Source: Pseudobdellovibrio exovorus JSS
GTDB lineage: Bacteria; Bdellovibrionota; Bdellovibrionia; Bdellovibrionales; Bdellovibrionaceae
Assembly: GCF_000348725.1 (NCBI RefSeq)
Contig: NC_020813.1
Coordinates: 1,650,248 to 1,714,247 of the forward strand
Direction of reading: 5' to 3'
DNA length: 64,000 bases
A model generated the notes under the pieces. It had not been told where the DNA came from. It saw nothing but the letters and a program-made list of their open reading frames with translations, and ran no database searches. Position 1 is the stretch's first letter, and each line of letters begins with the position of its first letter. The translations under genes were made by a program, and so were the position numbers. This document shows, piece after piece, positions 40,323 to 51,222 of this stretch.

Positions 40323-40338
40323 TTAGTAATTACTAATT
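40321..40338. repeat. 18-bp palindrome spanning both convergent stop codons
   Basis: AATTAGTAATTACTAATT is a perfect palindrome covering the stop codons of the barrel gene and hemH. It is followed by TTTT on the right, so it may be a bidirectional terminator of low GC. Confidence 0.5.
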
Positions 40339-41262
40339 TTGAAGCTCTTGTCGTAATCCTTGCACCAACATATCCGAATCATTCAGGCAGGGAATAAGTT
40401 CAAATGACTCACCCCCATGGGCTAAAAATTCTTTACGTAGCTCAAGGCCGATTTCTTCAAGGGTTTCTAAACAGTCTGCAACAAAGGAAGGACAGGCCAC
40501 TTTTAAATGACGGATGCCTGACCCTACCAATCTGAGCATCATCTCTTCCGTGGATGGCTCTAACCACTTTTTAGGTCCTAAGCGGCTTTGAAAAGCTGTC
40601 GAAACCTGTGATTCAGATAGGCCTAATTTCCGGCGAACATCTGCTGATGTCTGATAACACTGTTGTTGGTAAGATATCCCTTTATCCATATCCTGAGACT
40701 TCGGTAACCCGTGATAAGAAAGCAACAGATGATCTTGTGAAGTCAAAGAGGAACCAATCTGGTGGGACAAGGCCTCAATATACCATTCACGTTGATAGAA
40801 AGGTGGAAGAACTTGAACCTTTAAATGCGAAGCCACCTCTGACATCCTGTCAATGGCACTTCCCACAGTGGCCCGAGCATGGTGTGGATATAAAGGCAAA
40901 TAGACGATTCTTTCTGCATCTTGAGGCACCTGCGAAAAAGCATCAGCTAACGAAGGACTTCCGTACCTCATCCCGACAAGAACCTCCCAGTCAGAAGGCA
41001 ATGCTTGCTGAAGTTTTTTTTGTAGGCGCTCTGTATACACGGCTAAGGGCGACCCGCTGTCCATCCAAATTTTCTGATACTTCGCTGCTGAAGCACTTTT
41101 TCTACGGGGTACAATCAGGCCCTTCACTAAGAGATCTCGAAATGGACGAGGTAATGTAATCACGTTGGGGTCCATCAGAAACTCTTTAAGATATTCACCA
41201 ACGGCTTCTGCTGTTGGTTCATCGGGAGTCCCCAGTTGATTTAAGATTAAATACTTCTTCAT
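40333..41262 (-). CDS. hemH: Ferrochelatase
   Basis: The last heme step: inserts Fe2+ into protoporphyrin IX. The 309-aa protein has the N-terminal LNQLGTPDEP, GSPLAVYTERLQKKL, VGMRYGSPSL, the catalytic-His segment LLLSYHGLPKSQ and the late CPSFVADCLETLEEI. It is slightly short for the family. The two Cys in that late motif could suggest an iron-sulfur or metal link, but this is common in ferrochelatases without a cluster. It overlaps hemY by 4 nt and closes the operon. Confidence 0.96.
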   Translation of the reverse strand: MKKYLILNQLGTPDEPTAEAVGEYLKEFLMDPNVITLPRPFRDLLVKGLIVPRRKSASAAKYQKIWMDSGSPLAVYTERLQKKLQQALPSDWEVLVGMRYGSPSLADAFSQVPQDAERIVYLPLYPHHARATVGSAIDRMSEVASHLKVQVLPPFYQREWYIEALSHQIGSSLTSQDHLLLSYHGLPKSQDMDKGISYQQQCYQTSADVRRKLGLSESQVSTAFQSRLGPKKWLEPSTEEMMLRLVGSGIRHLKVACPSFVADCLETLEEIGLELRKEFLAHGGESFELIPCLNDSDMLVQGLRQELQN

Positions 41263-42512
41263 TCTGCAATCTCTTCCCGAATCACATCAGCTAATTTTAG
41301 ATTACGACCTAAAATTTTTCCTAAGCCAATAGCCCCTAAATAATTTCCAGTAAGATAAACCGGAGACTTCGCCTCTGATACACGCATACGGTTTTTTAAA
41401 AGATCACTATTTAGCACCTTCTTCAGCTCAAACCCATACAGTGGTAAAGCCTTCGGCCATCGTGTTACCTTTTTAAATTCAGGTTCATCGTGGTATTGAA
41501 GCATTTGCTTACGATCTGAAAGAACATGCTGAACTAATTCATCCTCGGTCAGTGCTGGCGATGCCTGATGAGGCACAATCCAGCTTTCACTTTGTAAAGA
41601 ACCCCGCCCCGCAAAAATATCTGTGTTAAATAATACCCCGAGGGAATTAAACCCCTGCTCTCGAGGAAAAAGACAGCCAAAACCCTGTAGGGGTTTTTCT
41701 TTTTTAAAGCCCATCACCACGACATCTAAACCCACCGCTGGAACTTGCGCTAAAGACTCTGACAACTGTGGTGCTACTGACTTTAAGAGCTGTGACGAAT
41801 TTAGATACGACGTCGCCACCACTACCGCTGCAAACTTCTTCTGTAAATCTGAAATTTCAACCTGCTGCTGATAGTGAAAAACTACTCTCTGCAATTTCAA
41901 ATATTTTTCTAAAGACTCGATTACTGTATAAAGACCATTCTCGGAAGAAATACTGCCGCGCAATTGGCCTTTAGGAATTTTAATTTGTGGTTTTAAAACT
42001 CCACCAATAACTAAATCAGCGGATAAGTGCGCAGCTCCCACTCCGTAAATACCTTGCAAAGCAGGAGTTAAAAGGTTCTGGGTAAAACTATGACCAAAAC
42101 AGCGTATCCCCCAATCAGCCACAGTTTCATCAGCAAATGGATGAAGCTTATTGGTCAACTTAGCTTTTAATAGACGACTAGCACTTTGGACTATTTCTAA
42201 AAGTGTTAGCGGCAATCGTTGTGGTTTGTTACGGAAAATCCAGCGCTTATTTGAACGGAACCCAGCCACAAGAGGTTTTAAACCTAAATCTTGAAACAGG
42301 GTTTCCACATGCTGGTTTGACAAAAGAGCATTCGCAGCACTCTCTGCCAAAATGGCCTCTTTTCGATCGGTAAAAATCAAGCCCCCACTGCGTGAAGAGG
42401 ACTCGAAAATCTCGCAAGAAATCCCTTGCTTCGAGAGCGCCCACGCTAAAGTCATTCCAGAAAAACCAGAACCGATAATAGCAACTGATGGGGGCGCTTT
42501 TGTTTCGCTCAT
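41259..42512 (-). CDS. hemG: Protoporphyrinogen oxidase, HemY/PPOX type
   Basis: FAD enzyme of 417 aa that oxidises protoporphyrinogen IX or, in some families, an earlier porphyrinogen. The dinucleotide motif is AIIGSGFSGMTLAWALSKQG with FESSSRSGGLIFTD. The C-terminal flavin contact LTGNYLGAIGLGKILG is present. The type is the oxygen-using HemY (symbol hemG in many genomes) rather than the flavodoxin-like HemG of E. coli. It overlaps both hemN and hemH by 4 nt, so it is tightly coupled. Confidence 0.93.
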   Translation of the reverse strand: MSETKAPPSVAIIGSGFSGMTLAWALSKQGISCEIFESSSRSGGLIFTDRKEAILAESAANALLSNQHVETLFQDLGLKPLVAGFRSNKRWIFRNKPQRLPLTLLEIVQSASRLLKAKLTNKLHPFADETVADWGIRCFGHSFTQNLLTPALQGIYGVGAAHLSADLVIGGVLKPQIKIPKGQLRGSISSENGLYTVIESLEKYLKLQRVVFHYQQQVEISDLQKKFAAVVVATSYLNSSQLLKSVAPQLSESLAQVPAVGLDVVVMGFKKEKPLQGFGCLFPREQGFNSLGVLFNTDIFAGRGSLQSESWIVPHQASPALTEDELVQHVLSDRKQMLQYHDEPEFKKVTRWPKALPLYGFELKKVLNSDLLKNRMRVSEAKSPVYLTGNYLGAIGLGKILGRNLKLADVIREEIAE

Positions 42513-43849
42513 AAAGATTTAGAAAACACCTGTGTTTGTGGTTTTTGACGTTTCAATCTTTCATCAAAGAACAAACATGCATTTCTAAGGAATGGTTTCC
42601 CTTTTTCAGTCATTTGCAATTGCAATCCATTGATTTGCACTAAATCATCTAAGATCATTTCTTTTAGAAAATCCTCAGCCGCCTGTTTTTGCTCTTGGTC
42701 CAATTCAACAGTTCCATTAGTCATGAATTGCAAAATTTGAACACGCCTAGAGCGATCCTCTTCACTCAGAATATGCCCACGATGGGTTGGAATGTCCTGC
42801 TGCTCCACTCTTTGTTGGTAAGTAGCAAAAACTTTTTCATTTTGATGGAAGCTATAAGGCGTTTCACTAATACTGCTGACGCCGAGGCCAAGTAAAAGAT
42901 CCGTTTTCTGATCTGTATACCCCATAAAATTGCGGTGCAGTTTTTTCTGTAACAAGGCCTGACTTAATGAATCTGTCGGTAATGCAAAGTGATCCATACC
43001 CACTTCAACATAACCTGCTGCTATCAGCTCGCGACGAGCTAACTCATAAAGATCACGTTTAGCTTTACCCGTTGGTAAGTCTTCATCTTTAAATAGTCTT
43101 TGAGCGGGTTTAATCCAAGGAACTAAAGCAAAACTATATAAAGCAATTCTATCTGGGCGTAACTGTACCGTTTTCTGAACTGTATCAAGCATCGTTTCAG
43201 GTGTCTGCTTGGCTAATCCGTAGATAAGATCAAAATTTACAGAACGATATCCTAGGCGACGAGCTTCTGATGTGATTTTTTCTGTGATCTCGTAAGGTTG
43301 AATGCGGTTTACTAATCTTTGCACTTCTGGATTGAAATCTTGCACACCAAGGCTGACTCGATCAAACCCCAACTCTTTTAAAACGATAAGCTGCTCTGTC
43401 GTTGTACGACGAGGGTCCACCTCAATAGAGCCTTCAAAATTATCAGCTAACTTAACTTGACTGAGTATAGGTTTAAGTAATTTCACTAAGTTCTCAGGAG
43501 ACAAAAATGTCGGAGTTCCACCACCAATGTGCAAATGCTTAAGTGCCTTTTGACCTAATGCTGGCACCTGAGACAAATAGGTTTGCCACTCTTTTAAGAT
43601 CAACTCAGCATAGGGTTCTTCGCGACGATGATCTTTTGTAATGATTGTATTACACCCACAAAATGTACAAAGAGACTCGCAATACGGAACATGCATGTAC
43701 ATCGCCCATGAACTCTGCGAATCCGAAAGCGTCTGTTTCAAATGCTCAATCCACAAATCTGTACTGGGTGCTTCTTCCCAATAGGGAACTGTCGGATACG
43801 AGGTGTATCTTGGAGCTGGTATATCGTATTTAGCAAACAGATGATTCAC
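42509..43849 (-). CDS. hemN: Oxygen-independent coproporphyrinogen III oxidase
   Basis: Radical SAM enzyme (446 aa) that decarboxylates coproporphyrinogen III. The motif YMHVPYCESLCTFCGCNTII carries the CxxxCxxC plus the extra Cys typical of true HemN, which separates it from heme chaperone HemW. GGGTPTFLSPE and SVNFDLIYGLAKQT are also typical. The C-terminal HemN domain is present (YTDQKTDLLLGLGVSSIS). It overlaps hemE and hemY by 4 nt each. No oxygen-dependent HemF is in this locus. Confidence 0.97.
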   Translation of the reverse strand: MNHLFAKYDIPAPRYTSYPTVPYWEEAPSTDLWIEHLKQTLSDSQSSWAMYMHVPYCESLCTFCGCNTIITKDHRREEPYAELILKEWQTYLSQVPALGQKALKHLHIGGGTPTFLSPENLVKLLKPILSQVKLADNFEGSIEVDPRRTTTEQLIVLKELGFDRVSLGVQDFNPEVQRLVNRIQPYEITEKITSEARRLGYRSVNFDLIYGLAKQTPETMLDTVQKTVQLRPDRIALYSFALVPWIKPAQRLFKDEDLPTGKAKRDLYELARRELIAAGYVEVGMDHFALPTDSLSQALLQKKLHRNFMGYTDQKTDLLLGLGVSSISETPYSFHQNEKVFATYQQRVEQQDIPTHRGHILSEEDRSRRVQILQFMTNGTVELDQEQKQAAEDFLKEMILDDLVQINGLQLQMTEKGKPFLRNACLFFDERLKRQKPQTQVFSKSL

Positions 43850-44871
43850 GATAACGTCTTCCTTACTGTGTCTACAAATAGTCTAACATTAGCTTCTGGT
43901 GTTTTAGGCAAAACTCCATGACCTAGCCCGCATACCCATCCCTTACGCTCTTCCACTGTTAGATCTTGATAAGTACGCAAGTAACTATCTAATTCTTTTT
44001 TAAATTCAGAAGTTTCTAAGTGAAGTAAAGATTGGTCAAAATTCCCTTGTACAAATCCAGAACGATTATTTTTTAAGATTTGTGGTAAATTCCATCGGTG
44101 ATCAAAGCCTCTTCCCGCAAATGGAATTTTTTGAAAGGCTTCCGAAGTAAAATGGTCTGCTGTAGTTCCCTTAGAGTAATATCCCAAACGCTGAGGGAAA
44201 GCCTGTGCTAATTTAGCTAGTTCAGGAACAATGATCTCATTGTACAGACGAGGTGATAACTCTCCGGCTGCCGTATCAAACAACATCACCACATCGGCAC
44301 CACCTTCAAATTGCAGACGTATATTTTCAATCAAAAATGGCGTCATCATCTCAGTAAACTTGGACCATAAATTGGGGATCGCCGTTTTCGCTTTAATTAA
44401 TGAACCAGCATGGGTTCCCTCAACTGCATAAACAAACAGAGTCCATGGGCCGCCAACAAAGCCAATTAGGCCTTTATTTTTGTCTAATCTTTCACGTGTC
44501 AGTGACATCGCTTTCTTTTGAAATTCCATTTCTGGCAATGCTTCTTTCCAAGGTTTAAGCTTCGAAATATTTTCGATCGTTAAATGAAAACCTAATTGAG
44601 GTCCTTGATCCGTATAATCTAAACCTTGCCCAAATGCTTTTAATGGAAATAATAAGTCACTGAATAAAATCGCCGCATCAAAATCAAAATCTTGAATAGG
44701 TCCCATTGCCACTTCTGCTGCTAATTCCGGAACCATACAAAGCTCCATGAACGTATGTTTGGCTTTCAACGCTTGGTAGTGTTGGTGATAACGTCCAGCC
44801 TGTCTCATCATCCAAACTGGTGGAGTCTTTACAGTCTTACCTGCTAATGTATCTAGAAATAACTGACTCAT
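43846..44871 (-). CDS. hemE: Uroporphyrinogen decarboxylase
   Basis: Converts uroporphyrinogen III to coproporphyrinogen III. The 341-aa protein has PPVWMMRQAGRYHQHYQALK, the invariant Arg-rich start, DFDFDAAILFSDLLFP with catalytic Asp, and the later VQGNFDQSLLH and GLGHGVLPKTPEANV. GAGGAG precedes ATG 44871. It lies 50 nt downstream of the response regulator gene, the longest gap inside the operon, and overlaps hemN by 4 nt. Confidence 0.97.
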   Translation of the reverse strand: MSQLFLDTLAGKTVKTPPVWMMRQAGRYHQHYQALKAKHTFMELCMVPELAAEVAMGPIQDFDFDAAILFSDLLFPLKAFGQGLDYTDQGPQLGFHLTIENISKLKPWKEALPEMEFQKKAMSLTRERLDKNKGLIGFVGGPWTLFVYAVEGTHAGSLIKAKTAIPNLWSKFTEMMTPFLIENIRLQFEGGADVVMLFDTAAGELSPRLYNEIIVPELAKLAQAFPQRLGYYSKGTTADHFTSEAFQKIPFAGRGFDHRWNLPQILKNNRSGFVQGNFDQSLLHLETSEFKKELDSYLRTYQDLTVEERKGWVCGLGHGVLPKTPEANVRLFVDTVRKTLS

Positions 44872-44920: not shown

Positions 44921-45601
44921 TTATGTCCCAGCAATAACCCACTGATAGCCGACCCCTCGTACAGAGCGAATTAACTTTTCATCCGCATCTGAAATCGTAT
45001 TGCGTAATCTGGCTATGGCATTGTCTATTGTGCGTGGACTTAAATCTTTATCCTGTCCCCATACTTTATTGATGATTTCATCACGACTGACGACTCGCGG
45101 GGCCTGTTCAACCAAAAGTTTCAAAATCATCATATCTTTCACTGGTGGATACTCGATATGGCCGTTTTTCAAGTGTACCGAATATCCCTGCAAATCAATG
45201 GAACAATGCTCTAAATCAATTTTTTGTGCTGTGCTCACGTGAGCATCCAGCACATGTTTCACACGAATCATGACTTCTTTTAAATGAAATGGCTTCGGAA
45301 TAAACTCTTCGGCTCCCGCTTCGTAACCTCGCAGACGAGTTTCTGGGTCACCCTGTGCCGTTAAAAATATAAAATGTGGGTTTCCTGATGAAATATTCTT
45401 CAAATTTTCAGCAATGTTAAAACCATTACCATCTGGTAAGCCCACATCTAAAATCAATAGGTCGTATGTGTTTTTTTTCAAAGCCTCAAAAGCAGAAGAC
45501 TGTGTTTTAACCCAGTCCACATCATACTCAATTTGCAGGCGCTCTTTTAAGATATCACCTAGTGTTAGTTCATCTTCGACTAAAAGGATTTTCTTACGCA
45601 T
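44921..45601 (-). CDS. OmpR/PhoB-family response regulator in the heme operon
   Basis: A 226-aa two-domain regulator. The receiver domain has KILLVEDELTLGD, phospho-acceptor Asp52 in LLILDVGLPDGNG, FLTAQGD and the conserved Lys in EFIPKPFHLKE. The winged helix has RVVSRDEIINKVWG, LSPRTIDNAIARLR and RSVRGVGYQWV. The start is ATG 45601 with GGGAAG; the frame continues to 45664 inside the kinase gene without support. It overlaps the kinase stop by 8 nt. Likely targets include the hemA/hemB intergenic repeats at 50170-50208 (inference). Confidence 0.95.
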   Translation of the reverse strand: MRKKILLVEDELTLGDILKERLQIEYDVDWVKTQSSAFEALKKNTYDLLILDVGLPDGNGFNIAENLKNISSGNPHFIFLTAQGDPETRLRGYEAGAEEFIPKPFHLKEVMIRVKHVLDAHVSTAQKIDLEHCSIDLQGYSVHLKNGHIEYPPVKDMMILKLLVEQAPRVVSRDEIINKVWGQDKDLSPRTIDNAIARLRNTISDADEKLIRSVRGVGYQWVIAGT

Positions 45602-46484
45602 TTTTCTTCCCCTGCTGTGAAGAAGATGCTGGCAACACGACGTCAACCTTAAAGCCCTGATCACTTTTTCTAAACAAAATTTGACCGCGCATTCGCTCTA
45701 TCAGATCTTTTGTTAAATAAAGACCAAGTCCATTGCCCTGTTCGCTACGAGCCTTAAGAAGACGTGAGCCTAACTGACGATGATCGCCTTTGTAGCCCTG
45801 TCCATTGTCTGAAATTTCAATGTGCCAATTATTTTTATCTAAACGTGGGCTGATATCGACACGATTCGCTTTGCCATGTAACCACGCATTTTGGAATAGA
45901 TTTCTAAAAATACTCTTTAGCGCCTGTCCATCCGCAACCACAACAGCATCTTGATGTAGTTTAATTTCTAAATCAGGCCATTCCACGCGCAAAAAGCCAA
46001 TCACTGAACTCAACTTGATTTCTTGGGTTAATAGTTTTTGTGATCCCTCACGCGCTACCCATAGCGAATTTTCTAATTGTAAGTCTAAACGACTGACTTC
46101 CTCTAAAAGCTTTTGAAACTCGGGGCTTTCCGCTTTTTCAGCCATCACTTCAGTACGAAGTCTTAGTCTTGTTAATGAGGTTTTTAAATCATGTGCAAAA
46201 TTTGAAAAGAAATTACGTAGTTTTTGATTACGGCTTTTTTCTTTATACGTGAACATCACTAGCATGAAGCCACCACAGAAAACTGCTGAAACCAAAACAG
46301 CACCTTCCCATATTAACATTCTTTGTAGGCTTTCAAATTTATGCTGATTCAAAACACTGGTCATCAGTTCGAGTTGTTCCAGTGAAAACATCCACCACCA
46401 AACAACTAAAGAGAATGTAAAAATAAACCAAAATAAAGAAAGCCCGAGTTTCCATCTTTCGATTCGTACAGCTTTCTCTATCAT
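45594..46484 (-). CDS. Membrane sensor histidine kinase in the heme operon
   Basis: A 296-aa kinase with two membrane helices (about 14-34 and 59-79) and only about 25 periplasmic residues between, so it probably senses in or near the membrane rather than with a periplasmic domain. His98 lies in NFAHDLKTSLTRLRLR. The ATPase part has the N box LKSIFRNLFQNAWLHG, ISDNGQGYKGD and GNGLGLYLTKDLIERM. There is no HAMP, PAS or heme-binding motif that I can see. It is 2 nt after hemL and overlaps the response regulator gene. Confidence 0.95.
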   Translation of the reverse strand: MIEKAVRIERWKLGLSLFWFIFTFSLVVWWWMFSLEQLELMTSVLNQHKFESLQRMLIWEGAVLVSAVFCGGFMLVMFTYKEKSRNQKLRNFFSNFAHDLKTSLTRLRLRTEVMAEKAESPEFQKLLEEVSRLDLQLENSLWVAREGSQKLLTQEIKLSSVIGFLRVEWPDLEIKLHQDAVVVADGQALKSIFRNLFQNAWLHGKANRVDISPRLDKNNWHIEISDNGQGYKGDHRQLGSRLLKARSEQGNGLGLYLTKDLIERMRGQILFRKSDQGFKVDVVLPASSSQQGKKNA

Positions 46485-46486
46485 GA

Positions 46487-47758
46487 CTATAATCCTTTAA
46501 TTACATCAGTAAGAATTGTCGCCGCTTCAGTTAAAATTTCATCTGTATGTGCCAAAGATAAAAATCCAACTTCGTAAGCATTAGGAGCCAAATAAACTCC
46601 ACGCTCTAATCCCTGCAAGAAGACTTTGTTAAAGCTTTCTTTTTGAGTTGCGGGAATCTGGTCTACACGGCGTAGTGGAGTCTCTGTTTTTTGATGGAAC
46701 CAGAACAAGCTTCCCTGACGAATAAACTGTAAGTTTTTTTCTGCCATGGCATCTGTTAACTGCTTTTCAAAAAACTCACCTTTTTTATCTAGCTGAGTCC
46801 AACCCTGTTCGCGTTCCATTTTTTGTAATGTTCTAAGACCAGCTCTCATTCCCACAGGGTTGGCACTTAAAGTTCCGGCTTGATACACAGGCCCATTGGG
46901 AGCAACTAAATCCATGTATTCTTTTTTTCCACCGTAACATCCAACAGGGAATCCCCCACCGATAACTTTTCCATAGGTCACAAGATCTGGCTGAATCCCT
47001 AGGATCTGTGCCATACCACCTAAAGCCATACGGAAGCCCGAAATCACTTCATCGAAAATTAAAAGGACTTGGTGTTGTTTGGCTAAATCCGCCACTTTTT
47101 GCAAAAATTCTTTTCTTTGAATTAATAATCCGTAATTAGCTGGCAACGGTTCAATAATCACTGCAGCTAAATCTTTACCATGAAGAGTAAATACCTCTTC
47201 CAAAAGCGTTTCATCGTCTAGAGGGCACACGACTGTGCTTTCAGCCATACGGGCCGAAATTCCAGCACTTGAAGACGCGGCTATGCCGGCAAGACCACTT
47301 CCTGCTTTAACCAGTAAGGAATCCGCATGACCATGATAACAACCTTCGAATTTTAATATTTTTTCTTTACCCGTAACCGCACGCGCCACGCGTAGAGCGC
47401 TCATAACCGCCTCTGTGCCCGAAGACACAAAACGCAGTTTTTCAACCCAAGGAATACGTGAAGTGATCCACTCAGCTAATTCCAAGCTGTAAGGTTCACA
47501 GGCTCCGAAGCTCCACGCGGTGCCGATCATCTCGCGCACTTCGGCTTCCACTTCTGCATCACGATGACCTAAAACAAGTGGACCAAAGCTTTGACAGAAG
47601 TCGATGTACTTCTTGCCTTCAACGCTCCACAAATAAGGCCCTTGAGCAGATTTAAAGAAAACAGGTTCACGTCCCATTCCTGCAAAACTACGTACAGGTG
47701 AATGCACTCCCCCTGGGGCCACTTTTTTAGATCGTTCGAAGTACTCTTTTGAATTCAC
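46487..47758 (-). CDS. hemL: Glutamate-1-semialdehyde 2,1-aminomutase
   Basis: PLP enzyme of 423 aa giving 5-aminolevulinate in the C5 pathway. [16 protein letters not shown] opens it, [18 protein letters not shown] and [10 protein letters not shown] follow, and the PLP lysine is in [16 protein letters not shown]. The start is a GTG at 47758 with GGAG upstream. It sits between hemCD and the kinase gene, 2 nt before the latter. Confidence 0.97.
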
Positions 47759-47777: not shown

Positions 47778-49223
47778 TTAATTCAATAATTCGACAAACA
47801 GTCTTTCATCTGACCCCAAGCGCTGGCGTAGAACTTCATAAGTTCGCCCCGGACCGCAGATATGAAAGGCTTTCTGAATATCGGGAACCTGAGATACAGC
47901 TAAATCAAACTCTTGCGGACTCGTCCAGATAAATGCTGTGTTTTCAGTCTTGATGTTCTGCGAAATCAGACTTAGCGACAGATCATAAGCTGCAATTGTC
48001 TGCTTATCGCCATAACCCGCCTGTGAAAGGGAATGACTTAAGCGTCCCCACTTCAGAGGTTCAACAAAGAAATGTTCAATTCGTAAATCTTCCACTTCCC
48101 CTAAGGACTCACTGCTACCATGAACCCATACGCCACGAGCGGCCAACTTTTTCCACGTCTCGCAACCAGCGGTCCAGACAATACCTTTAAATTCATGATT
48201 TAAGGTCCACGCATCCGCTTTCGCGACATAGAGCGCATCCAAATGTTGCACATCGGGTGTAGGACGTTCTTTTCGCTCAGCTTGAAATTCTAAACGTGTT
48301 CGTTGAACATTCGCAGGCAATGCTTTGTCAGTAACTAAAACTTTTTCAAAGATACTTTGCCCATCAGGAGTTAAGCCTCGGACAATTTTCACATCGCCAT
48401 ACGAGCGCTTCAGATAGCTCATACCTAAAGCCAAGTGACATCCACCACCAAAAGCTTGAAGAATTTGACGTTCTTTTTCGACAGCGGAAAAAGTGGCTTC
48501 GCAATTGATCGTCTTAAGAAGATCAGCCACATCCGAACGCCCCTGTTTAATTTCGACGGCTAATGCCCCTTGTGCGGCAGCATTTGGATCGTAACTTAAA
48601 GGCAGAACCATCCAATCAGACGTATTGAGGGTTTCGCGCAAAAAATCGCGTGTTTCAGGGAACTTGTCTCCATCCAAAAGACGATCTAAGGCCGCTTTCG
48701 CCAAAACCAGTCCGTCTATACTGTCATCTGCTAACCATTTACGAACACGTGTCGGAATGTTCCCACGTACACTTTCAAACTCTAATTTTTCTACGTTAGA
48801 TGGCAACGCCCACGAAAAAAAATCTTTCAGATTATGAATACGTCTTGGGGACGACGAGAAAAATTTTAGATTTTTTTTCTGGCGCGATGATTTTTTGAAT
48901 AATAAAAAATCCCGTTGATCAGCCCGTGGCAAAGTGGCCGCAATGTAGGTATCAGGTTTTTCCTGTGTCGGTAAATCCTTCCACGAGTGAACTACCATTT
49001 CAGTTTTTTCTTCAACCAAGTCTAAATAGAAGTCCTCAGTGAAAACTCCTTTTTCTGGCATCTTCCAAAGTGGGTTCTGTAAGTTTTTATCTCCGAGGGA
49101 TTCGCGAAACAGGTACTCTACTTCTAATTGAGGGTTTGCCTTTTGCAGAGCTTCGCCGACTTGATACGCTTGGTAGCGTGCCAATTCGCTTTGTCGAGCC
49201 GATATTCTAAGTTTTGTTTTCAT
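47778..49223 (-). CDS. hemC: Fused porphobilinogen deaminase / HemD-like uroporphyrinogen III synthase
   Basis: A 481-aa two-part protein. Residues 1-310 are HemC, which builds hydroxymethylbilane: [16 protein letters not shown], the catalytic-Asp loop [12 protein letters not shown] (Asp83), SPRRIHNL, and the dipyrromethane-cofactor Cys262 in [10 protein letters not shown]. Residues about 328-481 resemble a diverged Hem[17 protein letters not shown], a linker [28 protein letters not shown] and [17 protein letters not shown]. The HemD half is about 150 residues, shorter than the usual 240. No other hemD is in the locus, so this half must close the ring or a copy lies elsewhere. Confidence 0.85.
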
Positions 49224-49228
49224 AAGAA

Positions 49229-50158
49229 CTACAGATCATCCCAACCAAAAGGACGAATCTGTGCTCGCGCGTTTTCTTCAGCCTTCCAGTTCTCAATTCG
49301 AGTGTAGGCTCGACTGATGTGGTTTTGAATTTCCTGACGTTGGCTTTCGACTTCCGTGGCGAAATGATCTAAATGAGAATAATGTGCAATCTGTACCGAA
49401 GGGATAAAAGCCATTGAGTCATGGCGGAAATCATAAACTGCAAGCTGGGCATTCGTTGGCTGTGCGCCCATCCACTTTTGCAATGAGCTGTGGGTTAATG
49501 GTGCTGCCACTACCACCACTGATGAAAGTGGTGTAGCAGAATCCATCGGAAGCACTTCAAGAGCCTGTGCACCAAAAGATTTCTGTTTTACCTTTTCAAC
49601 GTCACGACACCAAATGCGGTAAGAGTATTTTTTTTGAATCCAAGGGATCATCTCTTCAACTAACTGCCCTGCTCCGATAAAATCAATAACCACAGGCTCT
49701 GTTTGAACTTTAGCCAACGCACGATCAGTTAGTTTTTTTCTTAAAAGCGATCCGTAGCTTTGAGATCCCATTCCGCATAGAGCTTCGTCTCTGACTTTTT
49801 TTACAACAGAGTAAATATGTTGAATGCGCGGAGAAAATTTATTTTTAAAATCTTGGTCCTCAAGGTTTTGCCACCAGTTTTTAAACTGACCAAAGACTTC
49901 TGTTTCGCCAACCAACGGACTTTTTAAACCGCAAAGAACTTCAATTAAAAACTCTTCGGCATCTAAACCCTGATAAAGCTCATCTGTTTCCGACAAAGAA
50001 AAATCACGACCATAGATTTCTTCTGAAAAGAAAATTTGACGTCGACAAGTTTCCCACATTAAAAAAGATGGATCTTGTGAAACATCCACGCCCTGAAAGC
50101 TATAAGCAGCCGGACGAGACATTTTATGAGAACGATGTACTATAACAAGATCAGACAT
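49229..50158 (-). CDS. hemA: Compact, divergent glutamyl-tRNA reductase
   Basis: A 309-aa protein, against about 420 in typical HemA. The catalytic Cys38 is kept in MWETCRRQIFF, where the family has S-T-C-N-R. GLKSPLVGETEVFGQFKNWW matches the conserved L-G-E-x-Q-I-x-G-Q region, VIDFIGAGQLVEEM is the NADPH-binding start, and the end has a helical segment like a shortened dimerisation domain. It begins the leftward heme operon, 87 nt from divergent hemB. Its place next to hemC, hemL and hemB supports the call; activity of the shortened form is not shown. Confidence 0.8.
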   Translation of the reverse strand: MSDLVIVHRSHKMSRPAAYSFQGVDVSQDPSFLMWETCRRQIFFSEEIYGRDFSLSETDELYQGLDAEEFLIEVLCGLKSPLVGETEVFGQFKNWWQNLEDQDFKNKFSPRIQHIYSVVKKVRDEALCGMGSQSYGSLLRKKLTDRALAKVQTEPVVIDFIGAGQLVEEMIPWIQKKYSYRIWCRDVEKVKQKSFGAQALEVLPMDSATPLSSVVVVAAPLTHSSLQKWMGAQPTNAQLAVYDFRHDSMAFIPSVQIAHYSHLDHFATEVESQRQEIQNHISRAYTRIENWKAEENARAQIRPFGWDDL

Positions 50159-50169
50159 AGGATCGACAT

Positions 50170-50208
50170 TATCATGTAGCTTTCATTAAAGTGTCACATC
50201 TTTGTCAT
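50170..50208. promoter_or_regulatory. Four tandem TNTCA half-sites, 11-bp period, in the hemA/hemB intergenic region
   Basis: TATCAT at 50170, TTTCAT at 50181, TGTCAC at 50192 and TGTCAT at 50203 have exactly 11 bp between repeat starts. OmpR/PhoB-family regulators bind tandem direct repeats with about one helical turn period, and PhoB itself uses TGTCA repeats 11 bp apart. The array lies between the hemA ATG (50158) and the hemB ATG (50245), so it could control both directions. Confidence 0.65.
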
Positions 50209-50244
50209 GAAATTGAAAAAATAACTTTAAAAGTGGAGTTCTTT

Positions 50245-51222
50245 ATGAAACTGACTCAAAGACCAAGACGAAACAGAAAAAACCAACAAATTCGCGACCT
50301 TACAGCGGAAACACACCTTCTTCCACAACACCTTATTTATCCGGTTTTTGTCTGCGAAGGCAGCAATGTAGAATCACCGATTAAAACATTAGCAGGTCAG
50401 TCGCGCTGGAGCCCCGATTTACTATCTAAAAAAGTAGCTCAGTGGAAGAAGCTTGGACTTACTCATTTTGCTCTTTTTCCGCAAATTTCAGAAGACAAAA
50501 AAAACTCCCGCGGTACAGAAGCCCTAAATGATAATGGTTTGCTACCGAATACAATTAAGCGTCTGAAAGATGACCACGCAGATATTTGCCTTATCACCGA
50601 TGTGGCTTTAGATCCTTTTTCTTCTGATGGACATGATGGCATCGTTGAAAACGGCCGCATTCTCAATGACGAGTCTGTTGAGATTCTTGCCGAGATGTCT
50701 TTGAAACAGGCGGAATGGGGAACGGACTGGGTCGCTCCATCCGACATGATGGATGGGCGCATTGGTGCGATTCGAAAAAAACTCGATCAAACAGGTTACA
50801 CAGAAACAAACATTTTAGCCTACACGGCTAAATACGCATCTTCCTTTTATGGACCTTTTCGGGATGCTCTTCAGTCGGCTCCTAAGTTCGGCGATAAAAA
50901 AACTTACCAAATGGACCCTCGCAATATCAAAGAGGCCGTGCGCGAAGCCAAGTTAGATTTATCTGAAGGTGCGGACATGATCATGGTAAAACCTGGGTTA
51001 CCTTATCTTGATGTCATCGCTCGCTTAAAGCGTATTTCTGATGTTCCCGTCGCGGCTTATAATGTCAGCGGAGAATATGCCATGATTAAAGCGGCCGCGG
51101 CCGCTGGAGCTTTGGATGAAAATCGTGCGATTCTTGAAGTTATGACTTCATTCCGTCGCGCTGGTTCCGATGCCATTTTAACCTACTTTGCACCTCAGGT
51201 AGCGGAGCTTTTGCGTCAGTAA
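50245..51222 (+). CDS. hemB: Delta-aminolevulinic acid dehydratase (porphobilinogen synthase)
   Basis: Joins two 5-aminolevulinate molecules to porphobilinogen. The 325-aa form starts at ATG 50245, with GTGGAG at SD distance; an upstream in-frame start at 50191 lies over the regulatory repeats. It has LIYPVFVCEGSNVESPI, the metal region DVALDPFSSDGHDGIV with Asp/Ser in place of the zinc cysteines (Mg/K-type enzyme), Schiff-base lysines in YTAKYASSFYGPFRDA and MIMVKPGLPYLD, and EVMTSFRRAGSD. It is divergent from the heme operon. Confidence 0.96.
   Translation: MKLTQRPRRNRKNQQIRDLTAETHLLPQHLIYPVFVCEGSNVESPIKTLAGQSRWSPDLLSKKVAQWKKLGLTHFALFPQISEDKKNSRGTEALNDNGLLPNTIKRLKDDHADICLITDVALDPFSSDGHDGIVENGRILNDESVEILAEMSLKQAEWGTDWVAPSDMMDGRIGAIRKKLDQTGYTETNILAYTAKYASSFYGPFRDALQSAPKFGDKKTYQMDPRNIKEAVREAKLDLSEGADMIMVKPGLPYLDVIARLKRISDVPVAAYNVSGEYAMIKAAAAAGALDENRAILEVMTSFRRAGSDAILTYFAPQVAELLRQ

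Follow-up and report, generated by a model that had tools for sequence, protein, structure and literature searches.

A probable HemR operator (hem-box) upstream of the HemKR-containing heme operon of Pseudobdellovibrio exovorus, conserved across Bdellovibrionota

Introduction

Which regulator reads the array of short direct repeats between the divergent genes hemA and hemB of Pseudobdellovibrio exovorus JSS, and which of the two genes does the array serve? The repeats lie within a stretch of 64,000 nucleotides (NC_020813.1, positions 1,650,248 to 1,714,247; hereafter the window) of a genome that consists of one contig of 2,657,893 bases. An original prediction, made from the letters of the window, had described four TNTCA direct repeats with an exact 11-bp period in the 86-bp hemA/hemB gap. 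It had taken them as half-sites, the last two closest to a TGTCA core, for an OmpR/PhoB-family regulator encoded in the leftward operon (44921-45601), and the whole as a self-regulating heme switch.

A two-component system of this kind is known from Leptospira, where phosphorylated HemR binds TGACA[N6]TGACA 5′ of heme genes and has been proposed to activate the heme biosynthesis genes (PMC11426443). The Leptospira HemKR pair and its hem-box are also the subject of Morero 2014 (10.1111/mmi.12763, as cited in PMC11426443). In L. biflexa, 5-aminolevulinic acid elicits the phosphatase activity of HemK, which leads to shutdown (PMC11426443). For B. bacteriovorus, the linkage of such a pair with genes for heme synthesis was remarked on in 2008 as data not shown (Louvel 2008, PMC2266917). 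Our survey, confined to the open-access literature, turned up no account of this box from Bdellovibrionota.

Results

Direct reading of the sequence confirms the predicted geometry. TATCA (50170-50174), TTTCA (50181-50185), TGTCA (50192-50196) and TGTCA (50203-50207), here numbered copies 1 to 4, follow one another in steps of exactly 11 bp within the 86-bp intergenic gap (50159-50244), with hemA on the minus strand on one side and hemB on the plus strand on the other. Across the 64 kb of the window the four-fold TNTCA pattern is found a single time, and none of 100 dinucleotide-shuffled sequences contained it. A stricter pattern, TNTCA-TNTCA-TGTCA-TGTCA, is present as one copy per genome in 23 of 66 family genomes, which fall in 2 of 20 genera, and its listed locations are just 5′ of hemB, at the hemA/hemB locus; the reversed control pattern gave no matches in the 66 family genomes. 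The four-fold array is thus far beyond chance. Its conservation is uneven, with copies 3 and 4 found phylum-wide and copies 1 and 2 found together only in two genera.

To the left of the array, closely packed genes on one strand form a heme operon that carries a histidine kinase and a response regulator in its middle:

49229..50158, minus strand: hemA, a short, divergent glutamyl-tRNA reductase of 309 aa, the first gene of the operon
47778..49223, minus strand: hemCD, porphobilinogen deaminase extended by an additional C-terminal part (39% identity over 516 columns to the bifunctional protein of Leptospira)
46487..47758, minus strand: hemL, glutamate-1-semialdehyde aminomutase (63% identity to Leptospira hemL)
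45594..46484, minus strand: hemK-like histidine kinase of 296 aa, with H98 and T102 aligned to those of HemK
44921..45601, minus strand: hemR-like response regulator of the OmpR/PhoB family, 226 aa, the candidate hem-box binder
43846..44871, minus strand: hemE, uroporphyrinogen decarboxylase (54% identity to Leptospira hemE)
42509..43849, minus strand: hemN, coproporphyrinogen III oxidase (56% identity to Leptospira hemN)
41259..42512, minus strand: probable hemG/hemY protoporphyrinogen oxidase, from its position between hemN and hemH and an FAD-binding-like N-terminus
40333..41262, minus strand: hemH, ferrochelatase, the last gene of the block (PF00762, E 5.2e-91)
50245..51222, plus strand: hemB, the divergent neighbour, dispensable for the presence of the box

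HemA is very divergent, with a partial GlutR_N match only and a score of 36.8 bits against the NCBIfam hemA cut-off of 209.6. Its Leptospira counterpart (L265:3355-4224), which is 28% identical to the product of 49229-50158, is annotated as a hypothetical protein.

The regulator combines a receiver domain with Trans_reg_C, and the kinase combines HisKA with HATPase_c. For comparison we used the heme locus of an L. interrogans record, NZ_CP020413.2 (L265), taken from the plasmid collection; the record is filed as plasmid unnamed1, and we take it to be the second chromosome of L. interrogans. A search of the source genome, which encodes eight full OmpR-type response regulators and one further Trans_reg_C protein, with the L. 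interrogans response regulator returned the operon's regulator at E 5.8e-62 and the next protein at 1.4e-25. With the L. interrogans kinase as query, the operon's kinase likewise came first (E 1.1e-42), ahead of a second-best protein at 6.1e-12. The regulator is about 50% identical to L. interrogans HemR over its full length (50-51%), and its phosphoacceptor D52 is invariant. The kinase is 33% identical to HemK, with H98, the phospho-acceptor, and T102, the phosphatase residue, both aligned (the numbering agrees with that published for L. biflexa HemK). The closest solved structure by sequence, PDB 4q7e, is titled as the non-phosphorylated HemR receiver domain of Leptospira biflexa. The predicted receiver of the operon's regulator superimposes on it at 1.5 A over 121 columns with 52% identity, in an alignment-based model of pLDDT 91.5 (a single-sequence prediction was poor, at pLDDT 46.6, and was discarded). 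Because the L. interrogans regulator and kinase each single out one clear match in the genome, both in this operon, and because of the likeness to 4q7e, the gene order and the aligned H98 and T102, we assign the operon's pair to the HemKR system.

On the hemA strand, copies 3 and 4 read TGACA-N6-TGACA, which is identical to the published HemR hem-box. The elements of the intergenic region, all on the minus strand, are as follows:

50192..50207: hem-box core (copies 3 and 4), TGACAAAGATGTGACA on the hemA strand, spanning roughly -49 to -34 relative to the start codon of hemA
50181..50185: copy 2, TGAAA, a weaker, putative third half-site
50170..50174: copy 1, TGATA, coinciding with the TGn and TA of a predicted extended -10
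50166..50171: -10-like hexamer TAATGT, which fits the conserved TANNNT and is separated from the box by 20 nt and from the hemA ATG by 7 nt
50168-50173: alternative -10 register, GATAAT, with a spacer of 18

We then gathered the hemA 5′ flanks that adjoin HemKR from the family, order, class and phylum. Across Bdellovibrionota the box stands directly 5′ of hemA in exact form in 66 of 70 flanks and with one mismatch in the other 4; these include one duplicate record pair, so that 69 distinct flanks were used for positional counts. A further 17 flanks, picked from lower-scoring regulators, contributed 8 exact boxes and 1 with one mismatch. By its own terms, the original prediction would have fallen if relatives with the kinase-regulator pair had lost the 11-bp period; the period is kept in all 70 flanks. 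It also persists in family f17, where most of the genomes sampled have a degenerate distal half-site, CTACA or similar, and keep the proximal TGACA, the 11-bp step and the HemKR pair. Loci with such a decayed distal half-site (CTACA/ATACA) are L271-L274, L280, L283 and L284, and in genus g93 (L250, L252, L253) the half-site variant CGACA is found. Among the matches listed, a HemR search of genome contigs returned mostly unrelated OmpR-type regulators, with few useful Oligoflexia and related MAGs.

When the flanks are aligned on the box, the sole other strong signal is TANNNT at nt 21-26 after it (T 88%, A 96%, final T 71%), and the first start codon of hemA usually follows 6-9 nt past this hexamer. 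A weaker TG signal lies at nt 18-19, where TG occurs in 12 of the 53 flanks without a third half-site against a background of 4.4% (P 2.6e-6, an optimistic value given that the loci are related). We infer a hemA promoter with an extended -10, a long spacer of 20 nt and an activator in place of the -35 contact. The short distance to the start codon suggests that hemA mRNA is leaderless, or nearly so, and made from a HemR-dependent promoter. With a spacer of 20 nt, copy 1 lies where TGn-TA must fall, and it is better explained as part of the extended -10 than as a half-site.

Much of this region could also be read as an ordinary sigma-70 promoter, in which TGACA (50192) is the -35, GATAAT the -10 and the repeat spacing is incidental. 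GTGACA-18-GATAAT is indeed the best promoter-like site in the region, with 10 of 12 matches, and the proximal TGACA and copy 1 coincide with its -35 and -10 regions, respectively. However, a plain promoter has no use for the distal TGACA, and this half-site is equally conserved and always 11 bp away. The phylum-wide -10 sits 20 nt past TGACA, a longer spacing than a normal -35/-10 pair allows. A sigma-70 promoter would account for part of the conservation but not for the box, and we consider this reading very unlikely.

The same core has a second possible reader. On the hemB strand, TGTCA-N6-TGTCA equals the E. coli Pho-box core, and PhoB bound at this position would couple phosphate status to heme synthesis. 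The regulator does score against PhoB models, as do all members of its family, but reaches only 136.2 bits against the cut-off of 296.2 for the PhoB equivalog TIGR02154, and zero proteins in the genome lie above that cut-off. The linked regulator is instead a clear HemR ortholog, and the box tracks the hemA-HemKR operon across the phylum. Moreover, the TGTCA reading points away from hemA, opposite to the usual orientation of a Pho box relative to its promoter. There are six exact matches to the box in the source genome, and only the one at the hem locus also has the conserved -10 spacing. Control by PhoB is therefore extremely improbable.

Of the five other matches, two lie within genes (L002, L003), one overlaps the 5′ end of an ORF (L006), one falls in none of the closed ORFs that its locus lists (L004), and one is 5′ of a lipoprotein-like ORF and lacks the conserved -10 spacing (L001).

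We next asked which of the divergent genes the box belongs to. In genus g19, hemB is unlinked and lacks a box, and the hemA operon, with HemKR, has one. Four family clusters have hemB downstream of hemA and codirectional with it; there too the box stands 5′ of hemA, in one case with a single mismatch. Among relatives the distance from the box to hemB varies widely, and a search by eye for a conserved hemB promoter at a set position relative to the box found none. The box therefore follows the operon of hemA and the kinase-regulator pair, and it belongs to hemA and not to hemB, since the unlinked hemB genes have none.

These observations also bear on whether all four half-sites work together as an operator for two HemR dimers that switches hemA and hemB alike. 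All four copies are kept in the 23 family genomes of two genera described above, and copy 2 shows 84% identity when this genus is set against genus g4 (presumably Bdellovibrio proper, judging from gene content and known lineages), where the neighbouring bases reach about 25%. Yet most of the phylum has HemKR and the core box but lacks copies 1 and 2, the TGn-TA of the extended -10 accounts for copy 1, and neither the unlinked hemB genes nor the variable distance to hemB fits a shared operator. We regard a two-dimer switch as rather unlikely. The functional pair would thus be the last two copies, rather than four comparable half-sites. Copy 2, with TGANA at this position in 16 of 69 distinct flanks and conserved mainly in this genus and Bdellovibrio, may be a real, lineage-restricted third half-site.

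HemR is present in 37 of 37 searched family genomes that carry hemB and in 0 of the 14 that lack it; the best HemR E values are 3.5e-94 or stronger in the former and 2.6e-43 or weaker in the latter. This co-occurrence is supporting and not decisive, because physical linkage explains part of it.

The 14 family genomes in which searches found neither hemB nor HemR are all at least 90% complete (G012, G030, G031, G032, G034, G040, G041, G042, G045, G046, G048, G050, G056 and G065). Their existence suggests that heme synthesis has been lost more than once in the family, perhaps with heme obtained from prey or the environment.

Discussion

The repeat is very probably a HemR operator, or hem-box, through which a HemKR-type system controls its own heme operon. 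Orthology to HemR and the conserved box make the regulator encoded at 44921-45601 the best candidate for its binding protein, much as first proposed. Of the self-regulating heme switch, the self-regulated heme operon stands as the best reading, and the notion of a switch between hemA and hemB is set aside, as unlinked hemB genes lack the box.

By this model, HemR, once phosphorylated, would occupy TGACA-N6-TGACA as a tandem dimer that covers the hemA -35 region. From there it would activate a promoter that is leaderless, or nearly so, and has its -10 at an unusually long distance, 20 nt downstream. Activation would cover the operon, including hemR's own gene; since HemK and HemR are encoded in the same operon, the system would therefore be auto-activating. 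A porphyrin precursor would then turn HemK into a phosphatase that dephosphorylates HemR and shuts the operon down, a signal step that we carry over from L. biflexa. As the hem-box core is the reverse complement of the Pho-box core, other OmpR-family regulators could bind it as well.

In Bdellovibrio and this genus, the hem-box might have been extended to a graded, two-way promoter, in which HemR at the strong distal pair would activate hemA. At higher levels of phosphorylated HemR, the weak third and fourth half-sites, which cover the spacer and -10, would fill as well, and HemR would repress its own operon. We offer this as a speculative elaboration that is on balance unlikely; if true, the graded promoter would place a built-in ceiling on heme synthesis.

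The regulon may be small. In L. biflexa the heme oxygenase gene hmuO is a repressed target of the system, and the source genome contains no PF01126 match to a heme oxygenase, so the published repressed target is missing here. The absence of hmuO limits the regulon in this organism and leaves its HemKR membership intact. With no heme oxygenase and no second exact box at the conserved spacing, the regulon may comprise just the heme operon.

These results extend HemKR, known from Leptospira, to a second phylum that includes the predatory Bdellovibrio. As the cis-site, the promoter layout and the gene order are conserved, Bdellovibrio heme synthesis gains a concrete candidate regulator. About 70 natural variants of one operator also outline a promoter grammar of box, 20-nt spacer, extended -10 and close start codon.

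Comparison with known systems places the locus closest to Leptospira HemKR. The L. interrogans operon runs in the order of a HemA-like ORF (annotated as hypothetical), hemCD, hemB, hemL, histidine kinase, response regulator, hemE, hemN and hemG. As here, the orthologous kinase and regulator stand between hemL and hemE, and the product of hemCD, which is bifunctional in Leptospira, has a further C-terminal part. The same box, AATGACACTTCTTTGACA, occupies the equivalent place 5′ of hemA in the same orientation, at a similar distance to an extended -10 (box, N19, TATAGT). The two loci differ in that hemB is inside the operon in L. interrogans and divergent here, in the spacer (19 nt there and 20 nt here), and in the two weaker half-sites by which, unlike in Leptospira, the repeat continues across spacer and -10. 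In L. biflexa the pair lies outside the hem cluster, so linkage to the hem operon is typical and not required. The hemA operon of that species showed no significant change in the hemKR deletion and was induced there under iron limitation; control of hemA in L. biflexa is accordingly composite. E. coli PhoB at its Pho box, an example of class II activation, shares the tandem 11-bp half-sites in the -35 region and the winged-helix regulator, whereas the regulator here falls below the PhoB equivalog cut-off. That hemA, hemCD, HemKR and the box are common to Spirochaetota and Bdellovibrionota suggests that the operon moved, or was kept, as a unit, and the HemKR/hem-box arrangement of P. exovorus is most likely a conserved new example of the Leptospira switch and not a new system.
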